DNA of 64,000 bases. Source: an uncultured Verrucomicrobiota bacterium (GTDB lineage: Bacteria > Verrucomicrobiota > Verrucomicrobiia > Opitutales > Opitutaceae). Both the position numbers and the translations under genes were made by a program. Below the pieces are notes generated by a model. It was not told where the DNA came from and did no database searches. It saw only the letters and a program-made list of their open reading frames with translations. Shown piece after piece: positions 25,118 to 62,928 of this stretch (position 1 is the first letter of the stretch; every line of letters begins with the position of its first letter). The stretch is taken from NCBI GenBank assembly GCA_903960515.1, contig CAJCBL010000171.1:24762-88761 (forward strand), in the 5' to 3' direction.

Positions 25118-25462
25118 ATGATCCCCGGCGAAATCATCCCTGCTCCCGACGCACCCCCGCTGCTCGCCAATGTCGGGTTGCCCACCGTCACTCTTGAGGT
25201 CGTCAACACCGGCGATCGTCCTATCCAAGTGGGGTCGCATTACCACTTTTTTGAGACAAACACCGCGCTTCGCTTCGACCGCGGCGCCGCCCGCGGTTTC
25301 CGCCTCAATATTCCCGCCGGCACCGCCGTACGTTTCGAAGCCGGGGACACCCGGCGTGTCGAGCTGGTGGCCCTCGCCGGCACCCGCGAGGTCTACGGCC
25401 TGAACGCCCTGATCGGCGGCCCGCTGGACCGGAATACTGAAGGGCTGAAACCTGAAGGCTGA
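25118..25462 (+). CDS. ureB: urease beta subunit
   Basis: [51 protein letters not shown]-track start at 24995 is an over-extension into the intergenic repeat. Confidence 0.97.
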
Positions 25463-25540
25463 AACCAACCAGCCCAATCACCCAACGATCTAGCCTCACC
25501 TCATTCTCCGTGCTTCAGCTTTCAGCCTTCAGTCCTTCAG
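25437..25540. repeat. GGCTGAA-type inverted repeat bridging ureB stop and ureC start
   Basis: 5' arm 25437-25463 CTGAAGGGCTGAAACCTGAAGGCTGAA; 3' arm 25514-25540 TTCAGCTTTCAGCCTTCAGTCCTTCAG; ureC ATG at 25545. Confidence 0.9.
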
Positions 25541-56789: not shown

Positions 56790-57347
56790 ATGCTCGCCAC
56801 GCTGACGTTCCTCCTTGCTTCCGCTGCGCCCGAAGCCGCCGAGGCTGCCCATCAAGGCAACCAGTTCGGCATCGCGACGAACTACATCGTGATGCAGTTC
56901 GTCAGCTTCTGCATCCTAGCCGTCGTGCTCTACCGTTGGGGCCTCAAGCCGGTGCTCACCACGATGGACGAGCGCCAGCACAAGATCGAGGCCGGCCTCA
57001 AATATACAGAGGAGATGAGGGCCAAGCTCGAGCAGGCCAACCTGCAGAGCGAGGAGATCATGCGCAAAGCGGCCTTTGAGGCGCAGGCCGTGGTAACCGA
57101 TGCCCGCAAGGTCGCCAAGGAGCTCGCCGATCGCCAAGCTCAGGATACCGCCGCGCAGACGGCGTCCATGCTCGCCAAGGCCCAGCAGGCCATCGATCTT
57201 GAGCACGGCAAGATGATGGCCGAGGTTCGCGGGGAGATCGCCCGCCTGGTGACCCTCACCGCGGCCAAGGTGCTCTCCACCGAACTCTCTGCCGCCGACA
57301 AGGCGCGCTATACTCAGGCCGCCACCCGCGACCTGACCAGCGTCTGA
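56790..57347 (+). CDS. atpF: ATP synthase F0 subunit b
   Basis: Single TM then long charged helix; position in operon. Confidence 0.94.
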   Translation: MLATLTFLLASAAPEAAEAAHQGNQFGIATNYIVMQFVSFCILAVVLYRWGLKPVLTTMDERQHKIEAGLKYTEEMRAKLEQANLQSEEIMRKAAFEAQAVVTDARKVAKELADRQAQDTAAQTASMLAKAQQAIDLEHGKMMAEVRGEIARLVTLTAAKVLSTELSAADKARYTQAATRDLTSV

Positions 57348-57443
57348 ATCGAAGGCTGAAAGCTGAAGAACTGCAGGCTGAATAGCACCTAAACCGGCCC
57401 CCATTCTCATCTTCGGCTTTTCAGACTTCAGCATTCAGCCTTT
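57348..57443. repeat. GGCTGAA-type inverted repeat between atpF and atpH
   Basis: AAGGCTGAAAGCTGAAGAACTGCAGGCTGAA ... CTTTTCAGACTTCAGCATTCAGCCTTT. Confidence 0.85.
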
Positions 57444-57449
57444 CCACTC

Positions 57450-57845
57450 ATGTCCGCTTCCAAACAGATCCGCGCCACAGCCCGCACTCTCCTCAAGCTG
57501 AGCCTGGAAAACGGCCAACTCTCCGAGGCGAAGGTGGCCGATGTGCTCGCTTGGTTTGAGCAGAAGCCGCCGGCCCACTCCGCCGCCACACTGCGCGAGT
57601 ACCACCGCCTCGCCCTGCGCGAATACAACCGCAGCCGCGCCCGCGTAGAGTTCGCCGGTGCCCTGCCGGGCGATGCCCTCCCGTCCATCGTTGCCCAACT
57701 TTCCAGCATCTATGGCCGACCTGTCTCTGCCATTACCAGAGAGAATCCCGACCTCATTGCCGGCGTGCGCATCAGCATCGGCGACGATGTCTACGAGCGC
57801 TCCATCGCCATCGAGCTCGAATCCCTCGCCAGCAGCAGCGTCTGA
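57450..57845 (+). CDS. atpH: ATP synthase F1 subunit delta
   Basis: Position in operon; C-terminal NPDLIAGVRISIGDDVYERSIAIELESL typical of delta. Confidence 0.92.
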   Translation: MSASKQIRATARTLLKLSLENGQLSEAKVADVLAWFEQKPPAHSAATLREYHRLALREYNRSRARVEFAGALPGDALPSIVAQLSSIYGRPVSAITRENPDLIAGVRISIGDDVYERSIAIELESLASSSV

Positions 57846-57952
57846 CTGATGCGAAACGCAGAATGGAGAATGCAGATCTGAAACGCAGATACGCGCACCT
57901 CCTTTCCCCACTTTAAGCTCTACATTCTCAATTCCCCCCACCGCCCGCGCCT

Positions 57953-59488
<1,536 letters not shown>

Positions 59489-59504
59489 GAGCGCTGAACG
59501 AAGG

Positions 59505-59927
59505 CTGAATGCTGAAACCTGAAGGCTGAAATGGTGAATCCATGTTTCACGAACACGGTGACCTCCGTATCCGAACGCGCGAACTCGCGCTGCGGATCGC
59601 GCGCGCTTACCGCGCCTTGCCTCGTGATCGGGTGGCCCAGGTTTGGGGCGAACAACTTCTCCGAGCGGGTGGCTCAGTCGGTGCAAATTATCGTGAGGCT
59701 CAGCGTGGTCGATCAGTCGTTGAGTTTCGCTCAAAGCTGGGAGATTGCCTCCGTGAAGCGGACGAAGCCCTCTATTGGATCGAATTGCTGGAAGCCGAGA
59801 AATATTTCACTCCGGAAAGGGTCGCCGCGCTCAAGGACGAGCTCGATCAGCTCATTGCCATTATTGTCACGCTCATTCGGAAAGACCCAGCGGGCTGAGT
59901 ATTCAGCCTTCAGGGTTCAGCCTTCAG
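59505..59927. repeat. GGCTGAA-type inverted repeat enclosing the four-helix-bundle ORF
   Basis: 59505-59530 CTGAATGCTGAAACCTGAAGGCTGAA; 59902-59927 TTCAGCCTTCAGGGTTCAGCCTTCAG (24/26 complementary). Confidence 0.9.
59542..59898 (+). CDS. four-helix-bundle protein (23S rRNA intervening-sequence/S23, TIGR02436-like family)
   Basis: FHEHGDLRIRTRELALRIARAYRALPRDRVAQVWGEQLLRAGGSVGANYREAQRGRSVVEFRSKLGDCLREADEALYWIELL; RAGGSVGANYREA and READEALYWIELL are family hallmarks. Confidence 0.92.
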   Translation: MFHEHGDLRIRTRELALRIARAYRALPRDRVAQVWGEQLLRAGGSVGANYREAQRGRSVVEFRSKLGDCLREADEALYWIELLEAEKYFTPERVAALKDELDQLIAIIVTLIRKDPAG

Positions 59928-59938
59928 CCTTCTAGAAC

Positions 59939-60823
59939 ATGCCCTCGACCAGAGACATCCGACGTCGCATTAAGTCCGTAAAGAACACCCGCCAGATTAC
60001 CAAGGCGATGGAGTTGGTTGCGGCCTCCAAGATGAAGAAGGCCCAGCAGCTCGCCGTGGCCGGCCATCCCTACGCCGCGTTGCTCTGCGATATGCTCGCC
60101 ACCCTCAGCCACCGTGTGGAACACGAGCAGCATCCGTTCTTCGCCGCCCGCCCGGTAGCCAACCGGGGCATCCTGCTGATCACTACCGACCGCGGCCTCT
60201 GCGGCCCGCTCAATAGCAACCTGCTGCGCGTCGTCACCGAGATCCAGGAGCCCACGAAATACGTGTGCATCGGCCGCAAGGGCACCCAGTTTCTCAGCCG
60301 CACCAAACGTGATCTCGTGGCGGATTTCACGGTGAGCGACAAGACCCCCTTCGCTGAGATTCGGCCCGCCGCCGAGTACCTGATCAAACTTTTCCTCGAT
60401 GGAGAGGTGGATACCGTGGAGGTTCTTTACTCCTACTATCGCAACACGCTGGTGCAGGTGCCTCTGTTGTTGCCGCTATTGCCGCTTGGCAACCTTGAGG
60501 ACTCCATCGAGCGGGTGCGCAAGCAGCGGGGGGGCGGGGAGTCTGCGGTCAAGAGCGACGAACGATCGATGCTCTTCGAACCGGGTGCCTCTGCGGTATT
60601 CGATGCATTGCTGCCGCTCTTTATCAACCGCGAGATTTATCAGTGCGTGCTCGACTCCAAGGCCTCCGAACATAGCGCCCGCATGGTTGCGATGAAGACG
60701 GCCAAGGACAACGCCTCCAAGCTTCTCGATTCCCTTACGCTCGAATATAACAAGGCCCGCCAAGCCGGCATCACCGCTGAGATTCTCGAAATCTCCGCCT
60801 CTCAGATGGCTCAGTCTGCGTAA
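59939..60823 (+). CDS. atpG: ATP synthase F1 subunit gamma
   Basis: MPSTRDIRRRIKSVKNTRQITKAMELVAASKMKKAQ. Confidence 0.97.
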   Translation: MPSTRDIRRRIKSVKNTRQITKAMELVAASKMKKAQQLAVAGHPYAALLCDMLATLSHRVEHEQHPFFAARPVANRGILLITTDRGLCGPLNSNLLRVVTEIQEPTKYVCIGRKGTQFLSRTKRDLVADFTVSDKTPFAEIRPAAEYLIKLFLDGEVDTVEVLYSYYRNTLVQVPLLLPLLPLGNLEDSIERVRKQRGGGESAVKSDERSMLFEPGASAVFDALLPLFINREIYQCVLDSKASEHSARMVAMKTAKDNASKLLDSLTLEYNKARQAGITAEILEISASQMAQSA

Positions 60824-60861
60824 ACCACGCAGCAGTATAAATGCAGAATGATGAGGTTTAA

Positions 60862-62373
<1,512 letters not shown>

Positions 62374-62515
62374 AGGCTGAATCCCGAAAGGCTGAACCCG
62401 CCGGAGCTCTTTGGCGCAAACAGCCCCCGTCGCTCCTGCCTTCATCGCTCCAGCTTTCCGCGTTCAGGTTTTTAGTGTTCTGCTTTTCAGCCTTCAGTCG
62501 TTCAGCCTTTCCCTC
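62374..62515. repeat. GGCTGAA-type inverted repeat between atpD and atpC
   Basis: AGGCTGAATCCCGAAAGGCTGAACC ... TTTTCAGCCTTCAGTCGTTCAGCCTTT. Confidence 0.85.
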
Positions 62516-62517
62516 CC

Positions 62518-62928
62518 ATGCCCATCCTCCTTGAAATCGCCACCCCTGAAGGCCGGGTTTATTCGGACACGGTCGACACCGTAGTGCTGCCCACGGCCCA
62601 GGGCGAGATAGGCATCCTGCCCGGCCACATCCCCGTGCTCACGCAACTGGAGGCGGGAGAGCTGCGCGTCCAGAAAGGCAACACGCAGGAGCTGCTTGTT
62701 TGCGGCCGCGGTTTTGCCGAGATTGCCGGCGACAAGGTGAGCGTGCTCGCCGAGCAGGCGATCAACATCGCGGCCATCGACGAGGCTGTGGTGCAGAAAG
62801 CCTGCCAGCGCGCCGAGGAGGCGCTCAGGGAGGGGCCCAATCTCGCCACAGATGAAGCCGAGCGACTGGAAGGAGTGGTGCGTTTCGCCTACGCCCAGCT
62901 CGACATCAAGCGCCGCCATCGCGGCTGA
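62518..62928 (+). CDS. atpC: ATP synthase F1 subunit epsilon
   Basis: LEIATPEGRVYSDTVDTVVLPTAQGEIGILPGHIPVLTQLEAGEL. Confidence 0.96.
   Translation: MPILLEIATPEGRVYSDTVDTVVLPTAQGEIGILPGHIPVLTQLEAGELRVQKGNTQELLVCGRGFAEIAGDKVSVLAEQAINIAAIDEAVVQKACQRAEEALREGPNLATDEAERLEGVVRFAYAQLDIKRRHRG

Follow-up and report, generated by a model that had tools for sequence, protein, structure and literature searches.

Proteins of the S23 family are encoded in intervening sequences (IVSs) of 23S rRNA, the flanking stem of which is cut by RNase III. Their four-helix-bundle fold is related to that of Avd, the accessory protein of diversity-generating retroelements (DGRs). To our knowledge, annotation places S23 proteins in many bacterial phyla without assigning them a function, and we know of no catalytic domain in them. 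Another association of gene and repeat is seen in the REP/REPIN-RAYT systems, in which the gene is flanked by family-specific palindromic repeats and ORF-less copies of the repeats are scattered over the genome. The IVS in the 23S rRNA of Coxiella has a 28-bp terminal stem and, just 5' of the S23 ORF, heptameric GACAGAT repeats, the number of which differs by strain; rRNA IVSs are cut out by RNase III (PMC4990558). Dispersed TAACTGA heptamers lying upstream of start codons are described, with no mechanism given, in PMC4679880. In the open-access literature searched, the pairing of S23 genes with repeats was unreported, save for the strain-level note on Coxiella.

We analysed a stretch of 64,000 nt (hereafter the window) from an uncultured bacterium of the Opitutaceae. 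As the initial annotation had proposed, a four-helix-bundle ORF of the S23 type lies between atpA and atpG (Table 1), and it is a full-length member of both PF05635 (E 2.5e-16; 60.3 bits against a cut-off of 33.8) and TIGR02436 (79.1 bits against a cut-off of 24). By sequence, a relative with a solved structure is 2rld, an uncharacterized protein (E 1.5e-41). The inverted repeat claimed to surround the ORF is present and is built from 7-nt units of the GGCTGAA type, but its arms extend over 31 nt, not 26 nt, with 29 of the 31 positions paired. Aligning the upstream flank locally with the reverse-complemented downstream flank gave an arm score of 26, ~15 SD over dinucleotide shuffles of the same flanks. 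The element resides in the atpA-atpG spacer rather than in 23S rRNA; an Rfam search of positions 57300-62600 returned zero matches to known RNA families, and a search for phage relatives of the S23 protein found none.

Table 1. Positions in the window of the S23 element, its neighbouring genes and the hairpins lacking an ORF.
Feature	Position	Strand	Remark
atpA	57953-59488		
Left arm, tandem GGCTGAA-type 7-nt units (GAAGGCTGAATGCTGAAACCTGAAGGCTGAA)	59500-59530	+	94% complementary to right arm
S23 / four-helix-bundle ORF, 118 aa	59542-59898	+	PF05635, TIGR02436
Right arm, inverted TTCAGCC-type units	59902-59932	+	Repeat search
atpG	59939-60823		
GGCTGAA hairpin without ORF, atpF-atpH spacer	57352-57442		Arms 57352-57368/57426-57442, 94% complementary
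GGCTGAA hairpin without ORF, downstream of atpD	62373-62509		Arms 62373-62396/62486-62509, 79% complementary
GGCTGAA hairpin without ORF, spacer before ureC-like gene	25437-25540		Arms 25437-25463/25514-25540, 85% complementary
GAGAATG-unit hairpin without ORF, atpH-atpA spacer	57861-57934		Arms 23 nt, 83% complementary
GCAGAAT-unit hairpin without ORF, atpG-atpD spacer	60841-60928		Arms 14 nt, 86% complementary

Hairpins of the same GGCTGAA unit, devoid of an ORF, occupy three further spacers of the window, in the atp and ure operons. Over the source genome we counted 296 tandem GGCTGAA pairs against 3 for the reversed-pattern control. The same genome has 11 matches to TIGR02436, and most of the full-length members among them possess inverted arms of units other than GGCTGAA.

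The bracketing of S23 genes is by no means peculiar to this locus. With arms counted as present at an alignment score of at least 15, they were detected around 52 of the 90 distinct S23 ORFs collected from 29 related genomes of the order, as opposed to 6 of the 261 other ORFs at the same loci (Mann-Whitney p 3e-25). Scanning one genome per species yielded 80 further S23 loci from at least 12 phyla; 50 of the 77 that were scored had arms, versus 4/134 controls (p 1e-20). Altogether, inverted arrays enclosed 102/167 S23 ORFs and 10/395 ordinary ORFs, and the highest-scoring control ORF (L217) turned out to be another S23 ORF. Generic intergenic inverted repeats as an account of the arms were rejected on these controls and on the ParE toxin genes of the same genomes, which had inverted arms in 0/30 cases. 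The arms had a median length of 32 nt in the 102 bracketed elements, with a period of 7 nt in 84 and 8 nt in 14; no clear arms were seen at ~39% of the scored S23 ORFs. S23 loci on cyanobacterial plasmids had inverted arms in all 17 examined, several of them orthologous, and the single Chloroflexi plasmid locus scored just 12.5. The initial annotation had allowed that the ORF might never accompany such repeats elsewhere; the other loci show that it does. A four-helix-bundle gene between inverted 7-letter arrays is thus a widespread, largely undescribed class of bacterial element with a mobile appearance. As dN/dS ranged from 0.07 to 0.20 in the scorable pairs, the S23 ORF is kept as a protein by purifying selection. 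The upstream neighbour of the S23 ORF ran in the same direction in 83/99 cases, against a co-directional share of 65% among adjacent ORF pairs, an arrangement that fits expression of S23 by read-through.

Several observations touch on the surroundings of these genes. ORFs of the GxxExxY type (PD-(D/E)XK-like) also lay between inverted arrays, here of CACGGAG/CGCAAAG-type units, in 17/30 cases (L267-L296 and L147 2410-2814, the latter in the atpA-atpG spacer of G026), and in G025 arms of this type were nested around S23 hairpins. On cyanobacterial and Chloroflexi plasmids, S23 elements were located within or beside defence genes (L315-L320, L337, L339), in the orders drmD-S23-pglX, csx2-S23-cas1 and cas2-S23-cas1. 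At two loci on Nostoc plasmids (L335, L340) S23 adjoins the genes for XisI and XisH, and the distribution of XisH/XisI was earlier noted to parallel that of the TAACTGA heptamers (PMC4679880). At L192, tRNA-like sequences were apparently included next to each of the two arrays that flank the S23 element.

The unit of the arrays differs from one element to another, with GGCTGAA being just one of dozens of unit classes, yet it tracks the lineage of the S23 protein. When the left arm of one element was compared with the right arm of another, a shared unit was found for 53% of the pairs with 70-85% protein identity, 31% of those with 60-70% and under 1% of those below 50%. This correspondence holds in a single orientation only, since comparing arms in the opposite orientation revealed nearly no sharing, and in a Mantel test 0/500 permutations reached the observed correlation between arm unit and protein lineage. 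The GTAGCGA lineage was found in five genomes at three unrelated loci, and AGAGTGA is a further example of a lineage with its unit. GGCTGAA is the unit of the window locus and of S23 ORFs in G008 and G017, where they lie in the atpG-atpD spacer.

These two genomes, from two other genera, harbour the closest relatives of the window S23 within its lineage, so that the lineage occupies one atp spacer here and another one there. The atpA-atpG spacer of G008 contains a second S23 gene with other arms, and the atp spacers of other genomes contain ORF-less hairpins or are short and plain. Because the genomes are diverged at the atp locus (~70% identity), the comparison there is one of whole spacers and not of a precise empty site, and we turned to named plasmids for sharper filled and empty cases. 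On plasmid pC052_D of Nostoc sp. C052, the S23 element is inserted cleanly between two ORFs, which in p057_H are separated by 3 nt. In the plasmids of Nostoc N6, C057 and ATCC 53789, an element has replaced ~0.3 kb of a gene for a cytosine methyltransferase, of which three other plasmids have the intact form, and at a third Nostoc site it replaces ~0.2 kb of another ORF. No target-site duplication was evident at the clean Nostoc insertion, the other two Nostoc sites being replacements; direct repeats considered as candidate target duplications proved, in the strong cases, to be whole mini-hairpins or arrays present in a second copy. The C057 methyltransferase element (L322 compared with L331) has one heptamer unit absent from both arms, which hints at a concerted change of the two arms.

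The ends of the element can be drawn from copies at unrelated loci. The likeness of two 93%-identical copies in G025 (L042/L062) is confined between the outer ends of the arrays, and homology among the copies of the GTAGCGA group (~73% identity) likewise ends where the arms end on the outside. G025 also has deletion derivatives and ~20 truncated copies made up of the left array with roughly the first 50 nt. Scattered arrays lacking the ORF occur in many genomes, among them G006, in which S23 genes are absent.

We consider, with a probability of about two in three, that the feature in the window is a copy of a small mobile element composed of an array of 7-nt units, an S23 ORF and an inverted array, in which S23 recognises its own unit. 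The IVS-like element envisaged in the initial annotation finds agreement in three respects, as (i) ORF and arms recur as a unit elsewhere, (ii) filled and empty sites exist, and (iii) heptameric repeats occur upstream of the S23 ORF in the rRNA IVS of Coxiella. On the other hand, several points count against the element reading: S23 has no known catalytic domain, ~39% of the scored S23 ORFs are without clear arms, arrays occur in genomes in which no cognate S23 was found, no target-site duplication was seen, and the S23 protein of Coxiella is apparently untranslated (PMC4990558). Sequence comparison bears out the anatomy of the element, its generality, lineage-unit pairing, boundaries, empty sites, ORF-less copies and the purifying selection on its ORF; we infer, in addition, that S23 recognises the unit and has a role in movement, and that it acts on DNA rather than RNA. 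Under the proposed mechanism, each S23 lineage would be paired with its own repeat unit, and the pentameric protein would most likely recognise that unit, probably in the form of an extruded hairpin, in cis as well as on the scattered arrays that lack an ORF. S23 would then help the replication or repair enzymes of the host to copy the element into new spacers, now and then with replacement of host DNA. The window element may have entered the atpA-atpG spacer in this way; its symmetric arms would make the insertion tolerable, and read-through from atpA could express S23. 23S rRNA IVSs would be members of the class that landed in rRNA genes.

An element acting at the level of RNA is unlikely in our estimation, though it is the foremost of the rival readings. 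Here the element would be a parasite of transcripts, the stem of which is cut by RNase III to leave a tolerable gap, with S23 acting on the excised hairpin RNA. Excision of rRNA IVSs by RNase III and their 28-bp stem with heptameric repeats (PMC4990558) agree with this, as do the prevalence of co-directional upstream neighbours and the predicted RNA fold of the window element, in which the arms form the basal stem (-182.5 kcal/mol, z -3.2). Nevertheless, sense-strand mismatches between arms showed no excess of G:U over A:C (86 vs 111), a pattern that suits symmetry at the level of DNA at least equally; given this lack of preference, the likeness of the arms is probably not maintained by pairing of the sense-strand RNA. 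The copy in the methyltransferase gene deleted host coding DNA, and therefore its excision could not restore the gene, and arrays often stand alone, without a partner arm. More doubtful still is that the arrays are generic intergenic repeats born of slippage or template switching, the S23 (and GxxExxY) ORFs being passengers that survive best in loops. In its favour, G006 lacks an S23 gene yet has ~20 solo GTAGCGA arrays, no S23 of the GGCTGAA lineage was found in G003, G004 and G025 despite their many GGCTGAA arrays, and GxxExxY ORFs are bracketed as well. Against this stand the pairing of unit and lineage in one orientation, the exact stop of homology at the arms, and the unbracketed ordinary ORFs and ParE genes. 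The presence of S23 does not cleanly predict the number of arrays, G006 being the case of arrays without S23. As G006, G003, G004 and G025 are rich in arrays for which no cognate S23 was found, arrays persist or spread in the absence of a resident cognate protein; those in the four genomes could be relics or could be spreading by other means. In G006 C1 (L297-L314), the strand of the solo GTAGCGA arrays follows the replichore, or the orientation of genes.

These solo arrays often sit just 5' of start codons, a position shared with the TAACTGA repeats (PMC4679880), and S23 might accordingly be viewed as a regulator of host operons that binds heptamers near start codons, for example post-transcriptionally. 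We regard such a role as quite improbable: the position is not conserved, as different atp spacers or none are occupied across genera, copies disrupt genes such as that for the methyltransferase, and the units vary between lineages. An accessory of a DGR, after the manner of Avd, is suggested by the shared fold but was rejected as having a negligible chance. RVT_1 was undetected in G003, G005, G007, G011, G018 and G025, which have 3-9 S23 genes each, so that a reverse transcriptase is not required, and the one RVT_1 match in the source genome is on a contig other than that of the S23 locus.

The mobile element that we favour can thus be set beside the described systems. With the 23S rRNA IVSs of Coxiella and Leptospira it shares an S23 ORF within an inverted repeat (~28 bp and terminal in the IVSs), but the elements described here lie in mRNA spacers and genes instead of rRNA, and are accompanied by dispersed ORF-less arrays with units particular to each lineage. 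As the anatomy of the Coxiella IVS matches, we take IVSs to be elements of this kind that are situated in rRNA, a reading drawn from one described case, and on our analysis the known rRNA insertions look like special cases of the bracketed S23 class. Like REP/REPIN-RAYT, the window element has a flanking repeat that is dispersed as palindromic copies in the source genome, but its protein is an S23 four-helix bundle with PF05635 as the only Pfam assignment, in place of a Y1 tyrosine (HUH) transposase. The cyanobacterial STRR and TAACTGA repeats resemble it in being dispersed intergenic heptamer arrays; here, however, S23 genes carry inverted heptamer arms, a link to S23 that did not appear in the passages of PMC4679880 consulted. 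The deletion derivatives retain one element end, as in MITEs, but, unlike MITEs, the elements have no transposase that is known, and target-site duplications were not seen. The elements depart from Avd in that S23 needs no reverse transcriptase.

We tentatively extend this to the family as a whole, a step that we hold to be possible with rather less than even confidence: S23 proteins may constitute a large and so far unrecognised class of mobility proteins that recognise repeats and lack a transposase domain, each lineage driving its own heptamer array, with the dispersed heptamers in cyanobacteria, Verrucomicrobia and others as ORF-less progeny and the rRNA IVSs as members in rRNA. The lineage-specific pairing of S23 and repeat ties together the S23 proteins, the origin of rRNA IVSs and the origin of dispersed heptamers, and it opens the way to a direct test of binding and mobility.
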